Virus record (IMG/VR): IMGVR_UViG_3300039191_000589
Location: 1 to 64,000 of that record
From: a virus
DNA length: 64,000 bases
Reading direction: 5' to 3' (one strand)
The notes below the pieces were generated by a model, which saw nothing but the letters and a program-made list of their open reading frames with translations, was not told the DNA's origin and did no database searches. A program made the position numbers and the translations under genes. Within the stretch, counting starts at the first letter, position 1; each line of letters opens with the position of its first letter. Shown here piece after piece: positions 11,072-24,996 of this stretch.

Positions 11072-11515
11072 TATAAACAATATATATTACAAGAATCAAT
11101 TAATACAAATAGTAATACAAGTGTTAACATATAACAAATTCCAATTAATAAAATTTTTGTATTATATTATAAAAAATCTATTTACAATTTAATTAAAGTA
11201 TGATATAATATAATAGAAGTTAATAAAAAATATATAAGACCAATTAATATAATGAGCTATTTATTAAAAAGGCGAATTAAACAATATATATTATAAGAAT
11301 TAATTAATACAATTAGTAATACAGATGTTAACATATAATATAAGCAATATATATTACAAAGATTAATTAATACAAATAGTAATACAAGTGTTAACATACA
11401 ATACAAATAATATATATTATAAGAATTAATTAATACAAATAGTAATACAGATGTTAACAAACAGTATATTACAAGAATTAATTAATACAAATAGTAATAC
11501 AGATATTAACTCGCC
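11018..11515 (+). repeat. Tandem repeat derived from a gene 3' end
   Basis: Six imperfect copies of a unit of about 60 bases resembling CAATATATATTACAAGAATT then AATTAATACAAATAGTAATA then CAGATGTTAACATATAATAT. Copies begin near 11018 (the coding end of the pseudogene), 11078, 11282, 11345, 11408 and 11460. A unique segment with a promoter (about 11140-11280) separates copies 2 and 3. In the gene frame the unit reads QYVLQKLINTNSNTDVNI. This fills most of the gene-free stretch 11072-11575. Confidence 0.85.
11181..11209 (+). promoter_or_regulatory. Promoter inside the repeat region
   Basis: TTTACA-17-TATAAT with TGA extension. Its transcript would carry four repeat units and the nested stems before the gene at 11576. 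Confidence 0.8.
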
Positions 11516-11549
11516 ATAATAGATATAAGCTCAATTTAGATATAGGTCT
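11237..11549 (+). ncRNA. Candidate long structured leader RNA
   Basis: Three nested complementary pairs enclose the last four repeats: AGACC 11237-11241 with GGTCT 11545-11549; GAGCT 11254-11258 with AGCTC 11528-11532; GGCGAATTAA 11271-11280 with TTAACTCGCC 11506-11515 (nine of ten). The spacings between pairs are nearly equal on both sides (12 and 12 to 13 bases). Such symmetry by chance is unlikely in this AT-rich sequence. It begins about 20 bases after the predicted transcription start. Confidence 0.45.
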
Positions 11550-11575
11550 ATTTAATTAATATAAGGAGGTAATAT

Positions 11576-11875
11576 ATGAATAATAATAAAGTAACAATTA
11601 AAGTTAAAGAACATAATGGTAACTATTATATTGAATATAGAGAAGATAGTGATTTAACAAATTATGGGATAATAACTCAATGTTTACCAGCAATAGGAGT
11701 AGCTATAAATGAAGATAAAGATAAATTTATTAAAGATATTAATAATAAATTTAATTTAAAAATAGATGAAGATACTCATATTAATTATTTTAATAAAAAG
11801 GAAATTGCTAATAAAATTGCTAATTGGATAAGATCAAAATATATATTAAATAAAATGACTAATAAGGGGAGATAA
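11576..11875 (+). CDS. EWIES-family protein, 99 aa
   Basis: ATG 11576 after AAGGAGGTAATAT. Shows NYYIEYREDSD, the turn KFNLKI and YFNKKEIANKIANWIRSKYILNKM. The middle helix is atypical (AIGVAINEDKDKFIKDI). First gene after the repeat/leader region. Confidence 0.8.
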   Translation: MNNNKVTIKVKEHNGNYYIEYREDSDLTNYGIITQCLPAIGVAINEDKDKFIKDINNKFNLKIDEDTHINYFNKKEIANKIANWIRSKYILNKMTNKGR

Positions 11876-11876
11876 T

Positions 11877-12179
11877 ATGGGATCTAATAAGTCTAATAAA
11901 TCTAATAAAAAGATTATAGTAACGAGTGGAAAAAAAGATGGTTTATATTATATTAACATTAAAGGAGTAGGCGGAAAAAGAGAGACCTTTTTAGATCCTA
12001 ATTTAATTTCTATATTATGTGGTATTAAACAAAAAGAGTATAAGAAAATTTTAAATAATAAATTTAATGGAAAACATAAAGAACATAATATATGTTTTAA
12101 TAATAAAGAAAATTATAAACAATTTGCTGATTGGTTAGAATCATTAATAGTAGCTAAAAAAATAAATAAGGAGTGGTAA
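11877..12179 (+). CDS. EWIES-family protein, 100 aa
   Basis: Starts with ATG 11877 one base after the previous stop. The N-terminus is a Ser/Asn/Lys repeat (GSNKSNKSNKK), then LYYINIKGVGGK, LISILCGIKQKEYKKIL, KFNGKH and FNNKENYKQFADWLESLIVAKKI. Phe-Ala replaces Ala-Lys before the Trp, and a conserved GKHKE linker is present. Confidence 0.82.
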   Translation: MGSNKSNKSNKKIIVTSGKKDGLYYINIKGVGGKRETFLDPNLISILCGIKQKEYKKILNNKFNGKHKEHNICFNNKENYKQFADWLESLIVAKKINKEW

Positions 12180-12180
12180 T

Positions 12181-12483
12181 ATGGAATACCAAGTAAAACC
12201 TATAAAAATGCAATTATCAACATTTAGATTGAGAAAGAAAGTATATATAATAAAAGGGATTAAGGGAGGTAGTGAGGAAGCAACGTCGGATCATCAATTG
12301 TGTAAATTGGCTGGATTATCAATAAAGGATTATAGGGATTTAGCAATGGATAAATATGGAGCTAATAGAGAAAGAAAGATAGGGATATACTTTGATGATT
12401 ATAAACGGGCTAAAGAATTCGCTAAATGGATTGAAAGGGGAATATTAGCTACAAGATTAAGGGGTAAAGTAATAAAATGGTAA
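12181..12483 (+). CDS. EWIES-family protein, divergent, 100 aa
   Basis: ATG 12181 directly follows the previous stop with an AAGGAG site inside that gene. It is more basic and slightly less AT-rich than its neighbours. LCKLAGLSIKDYRDLAM, KYGANRERK and YFDDYKRAKEFAKWIERGILATRL are recognisable, with WIER in place of WIES. Confidence 0.8.
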   Translation: MEYQVKPIKMQLSTFRLRKKVYIIKGIKGGSEEATSDHQLCKLAGLSIKDYRDLAMDKYGANRERKIGIYFDDYKRAKEFAKWIERGILATRLRGKVIKW

Positions 12484-12584
12484 TATTACAAAAGCTTTTT
12501 ATATTATAATAATAATTTTTTGTATAATAAAGCCTTTATATTACAATAAATTTTATGATATTTTGCTGAGATTCAACAATAGCA

Positions 12585-12656
12585 TGGAATAGAGAGCTTT
12601 AGAAAGCTCAGAAGCGTCTCGTGCACGGCACTAGTAGTGTACAAGCCCCCTCCATA
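12585..12656 (+). ncRNA. Candidate structured RNA
   Basis: A G+C-rich island in an otherwise very AT-rich gap (12484-12757). ATGGA near 12594 can pair with TCCAT near 12650 to close a domain. The domain holds the hairpin GAGCTTT AG AAAGCTC and a second arm CACT AGT AGTG. The sequence GTGCACGGCACTAGTAGTGT is unusual for this genome. A promoter-like AAGCCTTTATA sits about 45 bases upstream, but its -10 is poor. It does not match a tRNA cloverleaf, and I cannot name a known class. Confidence 0.45.
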
Positions 12657-12693
12657 GAGTAAAAAGTCTAATTAGAGAAAATATAAAAAAATG

Positions 12694-12722
12694 TTTACAT
12701 GATAAACAAAAATTGATATAAT
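12694..12722 (+). promoter_or_regulatory. Promoter
   Basis: TTTACA-17-TATAAT with TGA extension, ahead of the membrane protein gene at 12758. Confidence 0.8.
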
Positions 12723-12757
12723 ATAATTGTAACAAAATAAATATTAAAAGGGGGGAT

Positions 12758-13208
12758 GTGATGATAAAGCTAATTATATTAGTATATTTGATATTTGTTT
12801 TTTTAAATATTGCTACCTTTTCAATTCCATTAATAAAGAAATATTGTATTGGTTTAACATTAAAAAAAGAATATATATTAGATTTAATATTTGCAATATT
12901 AGTTCCTTTCCCATTAAATCTTAATCTTTGTAATTTTATAATTAGTAGGGTAGATAATTTTGTTTATTTAGATGTATTAAAAAGATTTAATATTAGAAAA
13001 TATTCTTTTTTAGATAAATTAGACAAACATTATAATGATCTTCCGTGGGGAACTATAAGTGAATATCAAAATTTACCTTTTAAAATAGCTAAAAAATATA
13101 AAGATAAAATTAATTGGGAAATATTAATAAAAAATTATAGGGGGCAATAAAGATGAATTAGAAAAAATTGAATCATATTATATATTAAATAAATTAAAGG
13201 GGGAATAA
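12758..13208 (+). pseudogene. Membrane protein gene frameshifted at a G5 run
   Basis: The ORF from ATG 12758 or 12761 ends at 13150 (130 aa). Two hydrophobic segments (IKLIILVYLIFVFLNIATF and LIFAILVPFPLNLNL) are followed by a soluble part with IKNYRG. At the G5 run 13140-13144 a +1 shift restores NKDELEKIESYYILNKLKGE and a stop at 13208. That tail matches NKEELKKIESYYILNKLN in the gene at 13639, so the uninterrupted form was the ancestral one. The restored tail also resembles the EWIES signature end. It could be phase variation, mutation or base error. Confidence 0.7.
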
Positions 13209-13210
13209 TA

Positions 13211-13531
13211 ATGAGTTATAATTTTCAAACTTTTGAAGTAGAAAATTCTAAAAAAAATGAATATAAAATAAAAATGAATAGTTTTGAGGGAAGTCACTTT
13301 TTATATGCTGAGAGTAAAAATAATAGACTTGAAAAAGATGATGAAATAGCAAAAATTTTAAATATGACTTTAGAGGAATATCATCAAAAATTAATTAATG
13401 ATTTTAATGGAGTTAAAAAAGAATGGGGAAATGAAATATTGGTTAATTTTAAAAATAAAGCTAATGCTATGAAAGCAATTGCTTGGGCCCAATCAAGATA
13501 TGTTGGTCTTAAATTAGGTGGTCAAATGTGA
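13211..13531 (+). CDS. EWIES-family protein, 106 aa
   Basis: ATG 13211 two bases after the restored stop at 13208, behind AAAGGGGGAATAATA. Strong family fit: IAKILNMTLEEYHQKLI, DFNGVKKEWG, FKNKANAMKAIAWAQSRYVGLKLGG. The signature is altered to AWAQS. The stop TGA overlaps the GTG of the next small ORF. Confidence 0.82.
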   Translation: MSYNFQTFEVENSKKNEYKIKMNSFEGSHFLYAESKNNRLEKDDEIAKILNMTLEEYHQKLINDFNGVKKEWGNEILVNFKNKANAMKAIAWAQSRYVGLKLGGQM

Positions 13532-13632
13532 TTAAAACATATTGTATAATGATAAGCTTTCTTTATATAGCAGGGATATTGACAACAAATCTTATTTTTT
13601 ATTTAAGAAATAATGAGATAAAAAAAATGTGA
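13528..13632 (+). CDS. Small membrane peptide, 34 aa, GTG start
   Basis: GTG 13528 overlaps the previous stop (ATGTGA) and has AGGTGG upstream. The peptide MIKTYCIMISFLYIAGILTT and following NLIFYLRNN form one hydrophobic segment with basic ends. It resembles the N-terminus of the membrane protein at 12758 (MIKLIILVYLIFVF). It seems to be the detached first half of a second copy whose remainder is the gene at 13639. Confidence 0.5.
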   Translation: MIKTYCIMISFLYIAGILTTNLIFYLRNNEIKKM

Positions 13633-13638
13633 GTAATA

Positions 13639-14106
13639 ATGAAAGATAAATATAAAAGAAAAATATTAAAAAAAAGATTTATTCCTTTTCCTCTTAGCAC
13701 ATCTTTTTTAGATGAATTATCAATAACTCAAACTATGATAATGGGGGGAATGTTACATCAATATTATAGTGATGATAAATATAGAAAACAAGTTATTGAA
13801 ATATTAAAAAGATTTAAATTAAAAGATAAATATTTAGGTAATTTTAAATATAAAATAAATTGGAAACAGATATGTAAATATCAAGATCTATCTTTAGCAT
13901 ATGTAAAAAAATATAAAAAATATATATATTGGAAAGTTCTTTTAAAAAATTATAGTGGTAATAAAGAGGAATTAAAAAAGATTGAGTCATATTATATATT
14001 AAATAAATTAAATAATGATATTAATGACGAACCTAATGATGAAGATGAATATATAATTAAATCATTATTAAAAACAGTAGAAAATTTTAAAGTAGGAAGA
14101 TATTAA
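13639..14106 (+). CDS. Paralogue of the 12758 protein, soluble part, 155 aa
   Basis: Begins MKDKYKRKILKKRFIPFPLS. Shares RFIPFPLS, a LKRFKLKDKY-type segment, INWKQICKYQDLSLAYVKKYKKYI and KNYSGNKEELKKIESYYILN with the gene at 12758. The N-terminal membrane segment is missing and is probably supplied by the small ORF just before it. After the IESYYILNKL tail comes an acidic extension (NDEPNDEDEYI). The ribosome site is weak (GTGAG), consistent with translational coupling. Confidence 0.7.
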   Translation: MKDKYKRKILKKRFIPFPLSTSFLDELSITQTMIMGGMLHQYYSDDKYRKQVIEILKRFKLKDKYLGNFKYKINWKQICKYQDLSLAYVKKYKKYIYWKVLLKNYSGNKEELKKIESYYILNKLNNDINDEPNDEDEYIIKSLLKTVENFKVGRY

Positions 14107-14220
14107 TGTATTTCTTCGTATGATTCAAAAAGTGCAGCCATAAATATATTATAATAAATATATAAAAGAGGTGATTTTTTTAACAAAAAATTTAAATTAT
14201 TTTAAAAAGGTTTTATAATT

Positions 14221-14290
14221 AGATATTAACTCTCCAGGCAAGCTGTCGAGTTAATATCTAGAGCGAAGCTCTAGGTTACAAGTAAGTTGT
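14221..14290 (+). ncRNA. Candidate structured RNA with 12-bp stem
   Basis: AGATATTAACTC (14221-14232) pairs fully with GAGTTAATATCT (14248-14259) around TCCAGGCAAGCTGTC. AGAGC GAA GCTCT and an imperfect GGTTACAA / TTGTTAC follow. The first 12 bases repeat the sequence at 11501-11512 at the end of the leader-RNA candidate, linking the two elements. Bases 14107-14220 hold no gene I can support. Confidence 0.5.
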
Positions 14291-14320
14291 TACTAAAAAA
14301 TAGTTAAAAGGGTGATGTTA

Positions 14321-14749
14321 ATGGAAGTAGATAAGTTAGTAAATAAAATACACAACGGATTAAAGTTTAATAAAATGATAAATATTTCTAAAGATACTAT
14401 AGAAGAAATCTTATTACTAAGAGAAAAAATTATTAACCAAAAGAATATTGATAATTTAATTGATAATAATAAAGATTACTTACATTTATCTCCAAACCAA
14501 ATCTATATTGATTTAGACTTTTCTAATATAAAAAAAGATTTAATAGAACATTATAAAAATGCTGATATTAAAGATTGTAATAGTATAATAACAATTTATT
14601 TAGATAATTTTAAGTTTTCTGTTAATAGTATTGGTGAAATAACTGTTATTGAATATAATATATCTAAAAAAGAGTTATTTAATGAGATTAAAACTATTGA
14701 GTCAATCTTTCAAAAATATTGTAATAATTTTAAAATAAAAGCTAAATAA
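14321..14749 (+). CDS. Unknown protein, 142 aa
   Basis: ATG 14321 (MEVDKLVNKIHNGLKFNKMI) is eight bases from AAAGGG; an ATG six bases upstream overlaps that site. It is largely helical with one beta stretch (DCNSIITIYLDNFKFSVNSI) and ends KYCNNFKIKAK. No EWIES signature and no known motif. It is preceded by the structured element, which might regulate it. Confidence 0.72.
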   Translation: MEVDKLVNKIHNGLKFNKMINISKDTIEEILLLREKIINQKNIDNLIDNNKDYLHLSPNQIYIDLDFSNIKKDLIEHYKNADIKDCNSIITIYLDNFKFSVNSIGEITVIEYNISKKELFNEIKTIESIFQKYCNNFKIKAK

Positions 14750-19006: not shown

Positions 19007-20446
19007 ATGAATCAACAATTTTTAAAACATGTAGCTGCAACTTATCCTTTATTATGGATTGATACGGCGGAATATGATAGGGCTATTAATTCTTTAAGTG
19101 AATCAATTGATATTTTAGATCATAATTGTGTAAAATGGGATATGGTTAATGGAATTACTGATATGAATGGTGATATTATTGAAAATTCAAATGATGATCC
19201 TATTCAACCATTAGAATATTTAGAAGATAAAGAAGATACAGTAATGTTTATTCAAGATTATCATTTATATCTTGAATCAGAATATATTTGGAGAAAATTA
19301 TTAAATGATAAAAATGATTTACAAAAAAGAGGGAATGTTATTTCAATAGTTTCACCAGTAATGGAAATTCCAGATGAAATTGATAGATATATCACTGTTA
19401 TTGATTTTGAATTACCTAATTATGATAAATTAAAGAATATTGTAGAGGATATTTGTGATGATATGGATATTGAACATCCTGAAAATATTGATGAAATTAT
19501 TAAATCAGGATTAGGATTAACACAATTTGAATTTGAAAATTCTTTATATTTATCAATTTCTAGTTATGGTGAAATTAGACCAAATGTAATTCACAAACAA
19601 AAAGAACAATTAATTAGGAAAAATTCTACATTAGAAATTGAAAAATCAGATCGAGGTTTTGAAAGTTTATATGGATTAAATAATTTAAAATATTTTTCTA
19701 AAAAAATGGCTAATAGTGAGAATGGAAGAGGTATTTTATTAGTAGGGGTTCCTGGTGGAGGTAAATCTCATTTTGCAAGAACACTAGGTAATGAAACTGA
19801 TCGAATTACAATTTCAATGGATTTTGGAAGTATGATGGGATCACTTGTAGGAGAAACAGAAAGAAAAACTAGAGAAGCTTTAAAAATAATTGATGCTATG
19901 GAACCAGCAATTTTATTTGTAGATGAAATTGAAAAAGGATTAGCTGGTGTAACTGGTAGTAATGGTGATTCTGGTACTTCTCAAAGACAAGGTGGTCAAT
20001 TTTTAAGATGGTTATCTGATCATGAATCAGATGTATATGTTGTTGCTACTTCTAATGATATTTCTAAATTACCACCAGAATATTTACGGGCTGAAAGATG
20101 GGATGCAATCTTTTTTGTAGATTTACCAAATCAAGAAGAAAGACAAGGAATATTAGATTTATATAGGAATGAATATAATGTTAATGAAGATGAGGAATGT
20201 CCAAATATTCAAAATTGGACTGGAGCTGAAATAAAAACATTATGTAAATTATCTGATTCTTTAGAAGTTCCTTTAAGTGAAGCTAAGAATTTTGTAACAC
20301 CATTATATAAAACTATGGAAGAAAAAATTAAATCATTACAAGACTGGGCTAAAGATAGAACAATTCCAGCATCAAAAATTGAAGTTGATACTGATAATAG
20401 TAATGAATCTAAAAGAAAAGTGAGTAAAATTACTAGTTTAGGATAA
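19007..20446 (+). CDS. AAA+ ATPase, Ycf46-like
   Basis: ATP-driven remodelling protein of unknown target. Residues 1-220 form the N-terminal domain typical of Ycf46-like proteins (FIQDYHLYLE, then a V/I-rich strand IVSPVMEIP). The AAA core has Walker A GVPGGGKSH near 246-254, Walker B AILFVDEIEKG near 300-310, sensor-1-like VVATSNDISKLP and an arginine-finger region EYLRAERWD. A 479-aa length suits the family. The C-terminus ends KRKVSKITSLG, related to the KRKI tails of neighbouring proteins. It heads an operon with DUF1257 and DUF2997 genes, a grouping known from plastids, cyanobacteria and other bacteria. Confidence 0.88.
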   Translation: MNQQFLKHVAATYPLLWIDTAEYDRAINSLSESIDILDHNCVKWDMVNGITDMNGDIIENSNDDPIQPLEYLEDKEDTVMFIQDYHLYLESEYIWRKLLNDKNDLQKRGNVISIVSPVMEIPDEIDRYITVIDFELPNYDKLKNIVEDICDDMDIEHPENIDEIIKSGLGLTQFEFENSLYLSISSYGEIRPNVIHKQKEQLIRKNSTLEIEKSDRGFESLYGLNNLKYFSKKMANSENGRGILLVGVPGGGKSHFARTLGNETDRITISMDFGSMMGSLVGETERKTREALKIIDAMEPAILFVDEIEKGLAGVTGSNGDSGTSQRQGGQFLRWLSDHESDVYVVATSNDISKLPPEYLRAERWDAIFFVDLPNQEERQGILDLYRNEYNVNEDEECPNIQNWTGAEIKTLCKLSDSLEVPLSEAKNFVTPLYKTMEEKIKSLQDWAKDRTIPASKIEVDTDNSNESKRKVSKITSLG

Positions 20447-20481
20447 AAATATATTTATAAAAAATAAAGGAGGAATAAAAA

Positions 20482-20838
20482 ATGAGTCATATTGCTACTA
20501 TTGAAACTAAATTTAAAGATAAAAAAGTATTAAAGAAAACTTGTGATCGTTTAGGAATACGTTATGAGAATGTAACTAATTATAAATTTTATGATGGAAC
20601 AAGAAAATCAGGTTTAGCAATTTACTTAAGTGGTTGGAAATATCCTGCAGTTATAACTGATGAAGGAGAAATTTTTTATGATAATTATAATGGTAGTTGG
20701 GGAAGTATTGAAAAATTAAATAAAGTAAAAGATTATTATGGATTAGAAAAAGCTAAAAAAGCAGCTAGATCAAAAGGTTATTCTTATAAAGAAAGAAAAA
20801 ATAAAGATGGGAATTTACAATTAGTAGTAAATGTTTAA
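20482..20838 (+). CDS. DUF1257 protein (Ycf35-like)
   Basis: The MSH start, basic helix (FKDKKVLKKTCDRLG), GLAIYLSGWKYPAVI strand and the final KAARSKGYSYKERKNKDGNL helix match DUF1257, which is encoded next to Ycf46-like ATPases in many genomes. It is 118 aa, the normal size. ATG 20482 follows AAAGGAGGAATAAAA, 35 bases after the ATPase. The biochemical role is not established; the neighbouring ATPase is the likely partner. Confidence 0.8.
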   Translation: MSHIATIETKFKDKKVLKKTCDRLGIRYENVTNYKFYDGTRKSGLAIYLSGWKYPAVITDEGEIFYDNYNGSWGSIEKLNKVKDYYGLEKAKKAARSKGYSYKERKNKDGNLQLVVNV

Positions 20839-20854
20839 AAAGTGAGGGATTAAA

Positions 20855-21250
20855 ATGATAATTAATTGTGTTGCATATTTTAGATGTGAATCAAGAAATA
20901 ATAAAAAAATAAAATCCCAATTAAAAAAAATAGAAGAAAAAAGTAATAATTATATTATAGAATTTGAAAATAATGAATATAAAAATGTTTCAGTTAAATT
21001 TAATAATTCCCAAACAAAAGATAAAGAATATGGTTATTTAATTAGAAATAAATGTGTAGTAAAATTAAATGTTAATTTTAAGTCTAATAATTTAAATAAT
21101 AATATAAAAAGATTTGTACAGTGCCTTATTAATGCTCTTTTAAATGATGTTAATTATTTAAATTGTATAGAAGTTACAATGGGATCTAATAATAATTTAA
21201 GAATTAAAACTAAAAAAGGAAACAAAAGGAAAATATCTATTTTGGGGTGA
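20855..21250 (+). CDS. Unknown protein with C-terminal KRKISIL, 131 aa
   Basis: ATG 20855 after GTGAGGGATTAAA. Predicted alpha/beta with a Cys in the first strand (MIINCVAYFRCESRN) and a hydrophobic helix FVQCLINALLNDV. It ends KKGNKRKISILG, the same short C-terminal peptide that closes or lies near the end of proteins at 21954, 22536 and 36208. It stands between the DUF1257 and DUF2997 genes, so it may belong to that module. Confidence 0.72.
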   Translation: MIINCVAYFRCESRNNKKIKSQLKKIEEKSNNYIIEFENNEYKNVSVKFNNSQTKDKEYGYLIRNKCVVKLNVNFKSNNLNNNIKRFVQCLINALLNDVNYLNCIEVTMGSNNNLRIKTKKGNKRKISILG

Positions 21251-21254
21251 TCTA

Positions 21255-21749
21255 ATGAAGGATATAGAAATAGATTTTTATATAACAGAAGAAAAAGATT
21301 ATAAAAATAAATGTTATTCATTAAAATTTAGACCATATGAATTATGTGATATTAGAGGGAGGACTTATTATGGTGATCATTATAGTAAGCCAAGTTATTA
21401 TCATATAAATGATAACTTACCTCCTTGTTATCATAGTTGTATGTTAAAATTTTTAAAATGTTCTAAAGATACTTTAATTAATTCATTAAACAATAATTCA
21501 AATGCAAGAATATTTGATAATCGTATATATTTTAAAACTATAAAAGATGCAAAACAAGGTATTAAAGTATTACAATCACTTATGATAGCTCAAAATTTTA
21601 TTAGCAGTGATCTTAATGTAGTTAAATTTAAATATAAAGTGTATAAATATAGAGAAATTGATGGAGGATTATTTCAAACATTGTTAGAAATTTTAGATTT
21701 ACGTGATCCTATTGAACAATTAAAAGAGATTGAAACAGGAATTATTTAA
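21255..21749 (+). CDS. EWIES-family protein with C-terminal extension, 164 aa
   Basis: ATG 21255 within GGGGTGATCTA. The N-terminal 115 residues follow the family plan with inserts (YYGDHYSKPSYYHINDN, MLKFLKCSKDTLINSL) and a signature YFKTIKDAKQGIKVLQSLM that has lost the Trp. About 50 further residues (KYKVYKYREIDGGLFQTLLE) are unique. It is placed inside the ATPase module, away from the array. Confidence 0.72.
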   Translation: MKDIEIDFYITEEKDYKNKCYSLKFRPYELCDIRGRTYYGDHYSKPSYYHINDNLPPCYHSCMLKFLKCSKDTLINSLNNNSNARIFDNRIYFKTIKDAKQGIKVLQSLMIAQNFISSDLNVVKFKYKVYKYREIDGGLFQTLLEILDLRDPIEQLKEIETGII

Positions 21750-21763
21750 AAGGAGGAGATAAA

Positions 21764-21952
21764 ATGGGAGAAGTTATTATTACTTTTAATGATGGTGAAT
21801 CTACAGTTGAAACTAAAGGGATTAAAGGTAAGTCTTGTAAGAAAGCATCTGAATTTATAGAAAAAGGATTAGGAGATAAAAAATCTGATAAAAAAACAAA
21901 AGAATTTTATGAAAAGGAGAGTAATACAAATAAAATAAGGAGAAGGAGATAA
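21764..21952 (+). CDS. DUF2997-family small protein, 62 aa
   Basis: The N-terminal 40 residues fit DUF2997: VIITFNDGESTVETKGIKGK, SCKKASEFIEKGLG, with the GKSC and LG positions kept. The tail is charged (KKTKEFYEKESN) and ends RRRR. DUF2997 genes are usually found with DUF1257 and Ycf46-like ATPase genes, as here. ATG 21764 follows AAGGAGGAGATAAA. Function unknown. Confidence 0.75.
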   Translation: MGEVIITFNDGESTVETKGIKGKSCKKASEFIEKGLGDKKSDKKTKEFYEKESNTNKIRRRR

Positions 21953-21953
21953 T

Positions 21954-22535
21954 ATGGTAGAAATACAATTTAGATTATATTTTACTTCTAATGATTATAA
22001 TAATGAAGATATTAAAAATAGACTAGAAGATATTAGAGATAAAATGTATTATCGTGATGATATTCAAAGTAGTTTTGAAATTATTGATGTTGAACCAAGT
22101 AATGCTTGGGATGATATTGAATATAAAATTAATTGTTTTTTAGCACTTGATGAACGTCAATATCAAGGAATTGAATTTGATTATGATATGCCAATTAAAC
22201 AAATTATCCGAGATTATATACAACACCATTTAGAAAATGAGAATTTAAGATATTCTTATATGGATCATTTTGAAGCTACTTTACATCCTTTTTATAATAA
22301 TTATGAATTTGATGGGCATAATAGAGTTCGTGCTGGGGCAACTTCTGGGCACACTTATGATTCATGGGGAGATGACCCATGGGAAGATACAAGTAGTGCA
22401 GAAATATGGAAAAAAGAAGAAACATGGAAAAAAGAAGGTGATACAGAAAAAGAAGAATCTAGACCTTATCAGGAAAAAGTAGGTAATAAGAGAAAGATTT
22501 TTATATTAAATAATGAAGAAGAGGAGGATGAATAA
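21954..22535 (+). CDS. Unknown protein with C-terminal KRKIFIL, 193 aa
   Basis: ATG 21954 is one base after the DUF2997 stop. The first 115 residues are globular and acidic (VEIQFRLYFTSNDYNNEDIK). A His-rich turn (YMDHFEATLHPFYNN), a Trp/Asp segment (SWGDDPWEDTSSAEIW) and a Lys/Glu linker follow. It closes with GNKRKIFILNNEEEEDE, where the basic-hydrophobic peptide is followed by an acidic end. No family recognised. Confidence 0.75.
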   Translation: MVEIQFRLYFTSNDYNNEDIKNRLEDIRDKMYYRDDIQSSFEIIDVEPSNAWDDIEYKINCFLALDERQYQGIEFDYDMPIKQIIRDYIQHHLENENLRYSYMDHFEATLHPFYNNYEFDGHNRVRAGATSGHTYDSWGDDPWEDTSSAEIWKKEETWKKEGDTEKEESRPYQEKVGNKRKIFILNNEEEEDE

Positions 22536-22856
22536 ATGCCCCCTGATGATTTTGATGCTTTTATGGAGTTCATGTTAAGAGAAGAAGGAATAATAGAAGA
22601 TAGAGAAAGGGAAGAGAATTATGAAGATGATTTAAAAAGATTACAACAACATATTTTTTCAGAAATAATTAATGAAATGCATAAAGATATTCAAAGTGAA
22701 AAAAATGATAAAATTATTAATAATGCAAAAGATTCAAAACAAATAAATAATCAAAAAGAAAAAACTAAAGAAGATAATAGTGAAAAATGTAACACTAAAG
22801 AAACTAATAAAAGGAAAATATTTCTTTTGTCAGAGGAGGTAGATAATAATGAGTAA
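22536..22856 (+). CDS. Acidic protein with C-terminal KRKIFLL, 106 aa
   Basis: ATG 22536 directly follows the previous stop. It starts MPPDDFDAFMEFMLREEGI and is a long charged helix, then a disordered Asn/Lys linker. TNKRKIFLLSEEVDNNE closes the protein, parallel to its upstream neighbour. The end overlaps the next ribosome site and start by eight bases. Confidence 0.72.
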   Translation: MPPDDFDAFMEFMLREEGIIEDREREENYEDDLKRLQQHIFSEIINEMHKDIQSEKNDKIINNAKDSKQINNQKEKTKEDNSEKCNTKETNKRKIFLLSEEVDNNE

Positions 22857-23109
22857 AGAAATTGTTATGAATTTTAAAGATGGTATTGTAGAAACATTAT
22901 ATGAAGATGATTTAAATTTAGATCAAATTGGAGAAATGGATATACGTAGAGCATCTCATGTTGAGCCTAATAATAATGGAAAATGGATTGTTGATTTATC
23001 TCCTGTTAATGGTCCTAAATTAGGTCCTTTTAAAAAGAGGAAAGATGCCTTAAAAGCAGAGGTTAAGTGGATAAATAAAAATTACTTTAATAAAAAAAAT
23101 GCCCTTTAA
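22849..23109 (+). CDS. Small conserved hypothetical, 86 aa
   Basis: ATG 22849 after GAGGAGGTAGATAATA. The pattern IRRASHVEPNNNGKWIVDLS, then GPKLGPFKKRKDALKAEVKW is one I associate with small hypothetical proteins near Ycf35/DUF2997 genes, though I cannot name a Pfam entry. The C-terminal part (phenylalanine, basic turn, KDALKAEVKWI) is built like the EWIES signature and could indicate the origin of that family. A terminator overlaps its end. Confidence 0.68.
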   Translation: MSKEIVMNFKDGIVETLYEDDLNLDQIGEMDIRRASHVEPNNNGKWIVDLSPVNGPKLGPFKKRKDALKAEVKWINKNYFNKKNAL

Positions 23110-23568: not shown

Positions 23569-24996
23569 ATAAATAAAAATGAAATTAATTTTAGGTTAGG
23601 AAGTTTTGGTGCTGCGGTTCCAATGTTGTTTTTTATATTTTGGGCAATTTTTATTTCCGTTCAAGGAGCTCCTGATACTAATGGGTTGATTGTAGGGGCA
23701 TTAATAGGATTAGTATTAGGTATGTTTTTAGTTAAAGATGAATGGGAAGAATATTGTCAAAAGATATTTGAAGGAATGTCTAAAGATGTTGGGGTAGTAG
23801 CAATTGTAGCATGGTTTTTTGCAGGTACTTTTGCTCAAATCTTACAAGAAGGTGGATTAGTTAGGGGATTGGTTTGGATAGCTAATATAACTAATGTTCA
23901 AGGAGCTTTATTTATAGTTGTTACTTTTTTATTAGCTGCATTATTTTCTACAGCAGTAGGAACTGGTTATGGTACAGTAGTAGCATTTACAACATTAATG
24001 TATCCTGCTGGATTAGTTATGGGAGCACATCCAATTGTTTTATTTGCTAGTATTTTAAGTGGAGCAGCTTTTGGTGATAACTTAGCTCCAGTATCAGATA
24101 CAACAATTGTTTCAGCTGTTACACAAGATACTGATGTCCCTGGGGTAGTTAGGTCAAGATTTAAATATTGTATTATAGCCGCACTTCCAGCAATGGTTTT
24201 ATTATATATTTTTGGTAATACATCAAGTGATATAGCAATGAGTACCACTAAAGCCGCAGAATATATGGCAAATTCTGCTAATCCAAATGGTTTATTATTT
24301 TTAGTTCCTTTTGTTTTAGTAATTTATTTAGCTATGAAAGGTAAACATTTAATTATTTCTTTAACTTGGGGAATTATAACAGCATCTGGTTTAGGGATGT
24401 TAACTGGGTTAATTAATTTACAAGATTTAATATATATTAATGGAACTGAAGGAACAGTTACAGGAGCAGTTGTTTCTGGAGTTATAGGATACGTTCCGAT
24501 GGGTATATTAATACTATTAATTGTTGCCGCTGGTCATATTATGGAAATTGGTGGTACAATGAGAGCATTAAAAAAATGGTTATTGAATAAAATTAAAGAT
24601 AATCCTTCAAAAGCTGAATTATCAATGTGGGGATTAATTGCTAGTTTAAATATGTTTATTACAATTAATACAGCTGCTGAAATTGCTGCAGCACCTTTTG
24701 TTAAAGAGGTTGGAGAAGATTTTGATATTCATCCATATAGAAGAGCTAATTTTTTAGATTCTATTAGTTCAGCATTAGGATATATTTTTCCTTGGAGTGG
24801 AGCAGTATTACTAGGTTATAGCACATTACAAAATTTAGCTACTCAATATGATTTTGTGAATGTAATTTCAACAACAAAAGTTTGGCCTTATGTATTTCAT
24901 GGTTGGTTATTAGTATTGATTATGTTTGTTGCTGCTTTAACTGGGTTTGGTAGAAGATATATTGGAGAAAATGGTGAGCCTGTTAAAAAAAGATAA
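23569..24996 (+). CDS. nhaC: NhaC-family Na+/H+ antiporter, probable ATA start
   Basis: Integral membrane exchanger that would expel Na+ in exchange for H+. The reading frame is open from 23563 and encodes NKNEINFRLGSFGAAVPM before the first ATG at 23623; these residues fit the usual NhaC N-terminus. A GGGGG site lies at 23558-23562. The only plausible initiators behind it are ATA codons at 23566 or 23569, so a non-canonical start is likely. About ten hydrophobic segments are seen, with NhaC landmarks GAAFGDNLAPVSDTT and SRFKY, and WSGAVLLGYS near the C-terminus. Roughly 475 aa is full length. It is richer in G+C than its neighbours. Antiporters are rarely seen in phages. Confidence 0.88.
   Translation: MNKNEINFRLGSFGAAVPMLFFIFWAIFISVQGAPDTNGLIVGALIGLVLGMFLVKDEWEEYCQKIFEGMSKDVGVVAIVAWFFAGTFAQILQEGGLVRGLVWIANITNVQGALFIVVTFLLAALFSTAVGTGYGTVVAFTTLMYPAGLVMGAHPIVLFASILSGAAFGDNLAPVSDTTIVSAVTQDTDVPGVVRSRFKYCIIAALPAMVLLYIFGNTSSDIAMSTTKAAEYMANSANPNGLLFLVPFVLVIYLAMKGKHLIISLTWGIITASGLGMLTGLINLQDLIYINGTEGTVTGAVVSGVIGYVPMGILILLIVAAGHIMEIGGTMRALKKWLLNKIKDNPSKAELSMWGLIASLNMFITINTAAEIAAAPFVKEVGEDFDIHPYRRANFLDSISSALGYIFPWSGAVLLGYSTLQNLATQYDFVNVISTTKVWPYVFHGWLLVLIMFVAALTGFGRRYIGENGEPVKKR

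Follow-up and report, generated by a model that had tools for sequence, protein, structure and literature searches.

Type II AAA ATPases such as p97/Cdc48, NVL and Rix7 combine two tandem AAA folds with an intact second ATPase site. In cyanobacteria, a cluster DUF2997-ycf35-fed7 has been reported (PMC4284462); as reported, it holds a ferredoxin and no ATPase. AAA ATPases of mobile elements are also known from IetAS/SgiAT, the SGI1 antitoxin being described as a SpoVK/Ycf46/Vps4-type ATPase (PMC10954446), and in Rhizobium phage RHph_I4 the existing annotation places DUF1257 and DUF2997 next to the ATPase. The locus compared here with these systems lies in IMG/VR virus record IMGVR_UViG_3300039191_000589 (110,097 bases), which carries tailed-phage genes for terminase, portal and head protease; the first 64 kb of this record are referred to as the window. 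At window positions 19007-23109, eight genes follow one another head to tail on the + strand with intergenic gaps of -8 to +35 bases, in the tight run in which a sequence-only reading of the window had placed them. The run shares two DUF families with the cyanobacterial cluster, DUF1257 being of the Ycf35 type, and a tandem AAA architecture, as modelled, with p97/Cdc48, NVL and Rix7. Tentatively, and with rather less than an even chance of being right, we read it as encoding a p97-like AAA+ remodelling complex of mobile elements and some bacteria, whose partner proteins would dock through a shared C-terminal peptide. The eight genes are as follows.

19007..20446, + strand, AAA+ ATPase, 479 residues (Pfam AAA, phrog_8638, motif survey of relatives, structural alignment of the N-part)
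20482..20838, + strand, DUF1257 (Ycf35-type) protein, 118 residues (family profile built without the window, relatives matching PF06868)
20855..21250, + strand, 131-residue protein without known family, C-terminal tail NKRKISILG
21255..21749, + strand, member of the EWIES paralogue family, 164 residues, without KRK tail (EWIES profile E 1.2e-15)
21764..21952, + strand, DUF2997 protein, 62 residues (Pfam PF11211, E 5e-10, above cut-off)
21954..22535, + strand, 193-residue protein without known family, tail GNKRKIFILN
22536..22856, + strand, charged protein, 106 residues, tail TNKRKIFLLS
22849..23109, + strand, 86-residue protein of a conserved unnamed family here called SHVEP (RASHVEP...DLSPVNGP.LGPF; profile built without the window, E 1.1e-32)

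The ATPase matched Pfam AAA (E 1e-21) and, over nearly its full length, phrog_8638 (E 7e-77); its best sequence matches in the PDB were Cdc48/VCP proteins. Residues 238-416 form the AAA domain (PF00004), with Walker A GVPGGGKS (247-254), Walker B DE (306-307), sensor N350, arginines R361/R364 and a pore-loop SLVG (279-282), and the protein ends in the tail KRKVSKI. The Walker A lysine, Walker B DE, N350 and R361/R364 are kept in nearly all of 165 relatives, and the window protein has the full set expected of an active ATPase (Walker A, Walker B, sensor 1 and arginine fingers). Residues 1-200 are a degenerate AAA-like domain without Walker A, a motif that is absent from the first domain of 159 of 160 relatives. 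A model of this part, with a predicted local distance difference test score (pLDDT) of about 75-90, aligned to the AAA domains of p97 D1 and NVL (Z 10-11, root-mean-square deviation 4-6), which puts a second AAA fold ahead of the active one, as in p97/Cdc48. Because the N-part aligns to p97/NVL domains and Walker A is missing from it, the modelled protein resembles a tandem AAA whose first unit is inactive and whose second is intact. Unlike p97/Cdc48, NVL and Rix7, it has a first domain without Walker A and no room for the p97 N-domain, and the cofactors that would serve it are bacterial or phage proteins. Such an ATPase would probably form a ring that pulls on or dismantles protein assemblies. 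The sequence-only reading had called it Ycf46-like, a kinship that is at most a candidate; what the data show is a classic AAA ATPase preceded by a degenerate AAA-like domain. No locus titled cyanobacterial came up in the scan of bacterial genome contigs with the ATPase, and its weak relatives on cyanobacterial plasmids are not named Ycf46.

The grouping of ATPase, DUF1257 and DUF2997 in one run, proposed in the sequence-only reading, was borne out by Pfam, family profiles and gene order. The product of gene 21764 scored 39.5 bits against the Pfam PF11211 gathering cut-off of 24.1, and DUF2997 was thus recovered as predicted. The prediction of DUF1257 at 20482 held as well, although the Pfam scan by itself would make it a near miss: scanned alone, the protein scored 15.6 bits and stayed below the PF06868 gathering cut-off of 22.2, whereas a profile of 115 relatives, built without the window and without its nearest relative, found it at E 1.1e-37 as the sole match in the record. 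A profile of cellular sequences only found it at E 7e-34; 45 of 65 of its relatives match PF06868 (best 6e-16), and four phage relatives exceed the cut-off, so that the protein is kin to proteins that match PF06868. Failure of profile searches to recover DUF1257 or DUF2997 had been named beforehand as the outcome that would overturn the grouping; given the window-free DUF1257 profile and the relatives that match PF06868, that outcome did not arise. The structure model of the DUF1257 protein is confident (pLDDT 90) and gave no significant match when compared with the PDB (best Foldseek E 0.15, best VIA Z 5.0); therefore no function was read from its fold. In the open-licence papers searched, no tested function was found for DUF1257 or DUF2997, nor any function for the grouping as a whole.

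The 22849 protein had no Pfam match and, by profile, is not of the EWIES type. Its family, the fourth conserved one of the run, is small and unnamed and is shared by phages and bacteria, with members at 42 of 77 cellular loci and 19 of 80 viral ones. DUF1257, DUF2997 and the 22849 family may act as small constant cofactors of the ATPase. Fused open frames were found for DUF1257-DUF2997 (locus L070) and DUF2997-ATPase (L176, a metagenome contig that may hold a frameshift), and suggest contact between the members of each pair. A third fused frame, in L164, resembles a deletion artefact.

The KRKI tail is the most informative hint of the sequence-only reading, which had ascribed it to two proteins; the tail exists, and four proteins carry it (KRK[IV]), namely those of 20855, 21954 and 22536 and the ATPase itself. 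The strict motif [KR][KR][KR][IV] within the last 18 residues was found in four of the 156 genes of the 110-kb record, all in the eight-gene module (p 3e-6), and by the same rule in four of the 181 genes of a complete IncC plasmid, three of them in its module (p 2e-4). A looser motif, scored in the last 30 residues in all loci, was present in 79/173 ATPases and 55/87 DUF3150 proteins versus 187/3090 (6%) unlabelled open reading frames; in the small families it occurred at about 1% (1/117 DUF1257, 1/113 DUF2997 and 1/67 of the 22849 family). Under a stricter motif the ATPases fell to 29/171 (17%) against 2%; the tails of many ATPases thus resemble the motif more loosely. In a permutation analysis, ATPase tails matched those of downstream genes in their own locus better than those in other loci (z 6.4). 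The BLAST match between 21954 and 22536 was limited to the C-terminal 30 residues, and tails on both ATPase and partner also occur in phages L038 and L047, in which DUF1257, DUF2997 and SHVEP gave no match. The same short end peptide on otherwise unrelated proteins, the putative motor included, suggests a shared docking tag, and this pattern of sharing is as expected from a common receptor.

By the reading we favour, the partners would be variable: the products of 20855, 21954 and 22536 in the window, and DUF3150 or other proteins elsewhere. Their basic-hydrophobic C-terminal peptide resembles that of the ATPase, with the form KRKI.IL in the window and KRKIILD in IncC plasmids, and would most likely serve to dock them on one shared receptor. 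For this receptor the ATPase itself is the simplest candidate, since it alone among the components occurs at all loci compared and since L038 and L047, which lack matches to the small families, still bear tails. Gene 21954 occupies the slot held by DUF3150 in some related loci. The notion that 20855, 21954 and 22536 encode short DUF3150 (PF11348) proteins was rejected, the DUF3150 profile and hhalign both being negative; the profile had no match anywhere in the phage record, and none of the open-licence papers searched describes DUF3150.

Relatives were sought in GenBank phages, plasmids, viral contigs and bacterial genomes, and 80 viral contigs and 80 contigs of bacterial genomes with a relative of the ATPase were compared. 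In 46 of the 103 GenBank phage records that matched the ATPase, the match spanned most of the protein. Whole-record Pfam searches found both DUF1257 and DUF2997 in phages L338C, HJ05, UF_RH6 and RHph_I4, and DUF2997 in JP1 and in the Rhodobacter capsulatus phage RcTiptonus. The DUF1257 calls in JP1, RcTiptonus and an Acidianus virus were made with our own profile and are weaker, because its seed alignment already held those proteins. A scan of viral contigs with the ATPase as single protein returned nothing, whereas an alignment of several relatives succeeded as query; tblastn of DUF1257 and DUF2997 against phages gave no match. A phage version is neither new nor rare: besides the annotated RHph_I4, the trio of ATPase, DUF1257 and DUF2997 recurs in other GenBank phages, many viral contigs and IncC plasmids. 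In Rhizobium phages RHph_I4 and L338C, Aeromonas phage HJ05 and Pseudomonas Samunavirus, the ATPase is followed by DUF1257 and DUF2997 as in the window, and the 22849 family is represented too. These cassettes hold a protein of about 200 residues (X), often basic-tailed, between ATPase and DUF1257, whereas in the window the tail-bearing partners lie downstream of DUF1257. The M. smegmatis phage Firecracker has the ATPase with X, and neither DUF was found in it.

The bacterial contigs with the ATPase were mostly from Planctomycetes, then from Deltaproteobacteria and Nitrospirota. In the loci compared, the ATPase is often accompanied by DUF1257, DUF2997 or DUF3150. The cellular order DUF1257-DUF2997-ATPase-DUF3150-SHVEP was found in 17 loci, and ATPase-DUF1257-DUF2997-DUF3150 with or without SHVEP in 5 and 7, respectively; these counts are biased, because the loci had been selected for a similar ATPase, with Planctomycetes in the majority and many of the contigs short. 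Recurrent gene orders extend across Planctomycetes, Nitrospirota, phages and IncC plasmids. A search of plasmids gave 714 records with an ATPase match at E 1e-15, many of which are other AAA proteins with partial coverage. The backbone operon of IncC plasmids (WP_004201081, the ATPase; WP_000018404; WP_000757530, DUF2997) shares ATPase, DUF1257 (profile match E 1.4e-12) and DUF2997 with the window, and these are followed by three proteins that end in KRKIILD. It differs from the window in that its ATPase ends in GRKLAIED, its tail proteins have hydrophobic segments and no match to the 22849 family was found in the stretch searched. Separate from this module, one IncC plasmid (L182, 28227-36220) has a second AAA gene followed by DUF3150 and VWA genes. 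The top-ranked ATPase among GenBank phages was that of Streptococcus satellite phage Javan368 (L004, 3965-5542); this ATPase is 31% identical and ends in KTRKVLV, and DUF1257 and DUF2997 gave no match in that phage.

Nine Planctomycete loci (L133 at 11916-14452, L119 at 11166-13687 and seven others) carry after the module, in fixed order, genes for a ubiquitin-like protein, an E2-like Cys-rich protein, a JAB protein with a JAMM-type motif and a ThiF E1. ThiF and Prok-JAB are Pfam matches, and the ubiquitin-like protein matches ThiS weakly (E 0.0053). The Cys-rich protein gave no Pfam match, and we infer its E2-like identity from an HPHV...LC motif. Upstream of the module, a JAB fragment and ThiF lie in viral contig L056 (1-1464) and a ThiF fragment in L061 (47-466). 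Assignment to the PRTRC system was rejected, the Planctomycete ThiF scoring 30 bits against 144.75 for PRTRC_ThiF. The survey of prokaryotic ubiquitin-like systems by Iyer (2006) makes no mention of AAA, ycf46 or ycf35.

Several observations weigh against a p97-like complex with tail docking. The strict tail motif was chosen after the window had been seen, and the controls of the permutation analysis themselves reached z 3.6, 2.5 and 1.8, so that base composition explains part, although not all, of the tail signal. The model of the AAA half is poor (pLDDT mostly 36-65, from an alignment of ten rows), and therefore no ring contacts could be read from it. The pore-loop aromatic of many unfoldases is a leucine in the window ATPase and an aromatic in 51 of 165 relatives. 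One IncC tail protein has a possible signal peptide at its start and would then carry its tail outside the cytosol, and a KRK-rich tail could instead bind nucleic acid or membrane. The last point leads to a different account, in which the tail directs the ATPase and its partners to a membrane or to the DNA of the phage or plasmid, where the ATPase acts on DNA-bound or membrane proteins. The strongly basic tail, the hydrophobic N-terminal segments of three IncC tail bearers, a BRCT domain in one viral tail bearer and the ParB-like gene that follows in IncC and in phage Firecracker are all consistent with it; yet the alternating hydrophobic residues after KRK are also conserved, in many ATPases no more than one or two residues of the tail are basic (RALDL, GRKLDL), and tails of the same locus covary. 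We consider this account unlikely, if worth keeping in mind.

The fixed-order set in the nine Planctomycete loci, together with ThiF upstream in two viral contigs (one also with JAB), would fit an ATPase that acts as a segregase for proteins marked by a ubiquitin-like protein, with phages keeping the motor and using host or other marks. Against this, profiles that detect ubiquitin-like, E1 and JAB proteins in those nine loci found none in the phage record, nor in most relatives, and the E2 assignment has no Pfam match behind it; a segregase of this kind is accordingly a poor prospect for the window. The SGI1 antitoxin cited above, and the fact that IetA models are the best PADLOC matches of the ATPase (1e-16), would speak for a stability or toxin–antitoxin system of the IetAS/SgiAT kind in which the AAA ATPase is the antitoxin. 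The likeness is that of an AAA ATPase on mobile elements: the matches are confined to the AAA domain, reach 43.7 bits against a curated IteA score of 510, and neither a subtilisin-like partner nor any other protease family was seen in the run or its immediate neighbour on either side, which makes such a system very improbable. Least credible of all is a role in photosynthesis or ferredoxin redox, for which the cyanobacterial cluster is the argument. Phages of heterotrophs carry the module, as do IncC plasmids and Planctomycetes, and no ferredoxin was recognized among the nearby genes examined.

The remodelling complex, in which tail recognition would deliver partners to the motor to the presumed benefit of the phage, may belong to something wider. 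In a more doubtful extension, phages, conjugative plasmids and bacteria would share a widespread AAA+ machine, so far undescribed, that recruits non-homologous partners via a KRKI.IL-type peptide; DUF1257, DUF2997 and the 22849 family would be its constant cofactors, and a ubiquitin-like pathway would be coupled to it in some Planctomycetes. The module may have been described elsewhere, the literature searched being that under open licence. Taken alone, the phage trio is ordinary; what is unusual is the larger module with its shared C-terminal peptide, and it lends itself to direct tests, as a common tag allows one to ask which protein binds it. That DUF1257 (Ycf35) and DUF2997 stand next to the ATPase in phages and IncC plasmids shows that photosynthesis need not be what the module serves, and it offers tractable genetic systems for the two families. 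The link to a bacterial ubiquitin-like pathway, if true, would put the module among p97-like segregases.

An EWIES member in the run had been predicted at 22849; one is present, and it is gene 21255. It belongs to a family with 33 genes for small proteins (window 6681-36202, about 85-105 residues, C-terminal FxxKxDAxxAKEWLES), and the EWIES profile had no match in the other loci compared at that stage. A purine-rich Shine–Dalgarno-like sequence lies upstream of most starts in the eight-gene run; promoter sites were rarer than in shuffled sequence, and the result of that scan was not used. In a tailed phage (L002, 491-5683), two conjugation-type ATPases (TraG P-loop/HerA, 2e-10; the other weakly TraD-like) lie beside a 302-residue hydrophobic protein. 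The phage of the window also encodes a Na+/H+ antiporter (PF03553, 2e-31) at window positions 23623-24996, within its small-gene region, and a Tubulin/FtsZ-type GTPase (6e-14; L001, 18491-19687).

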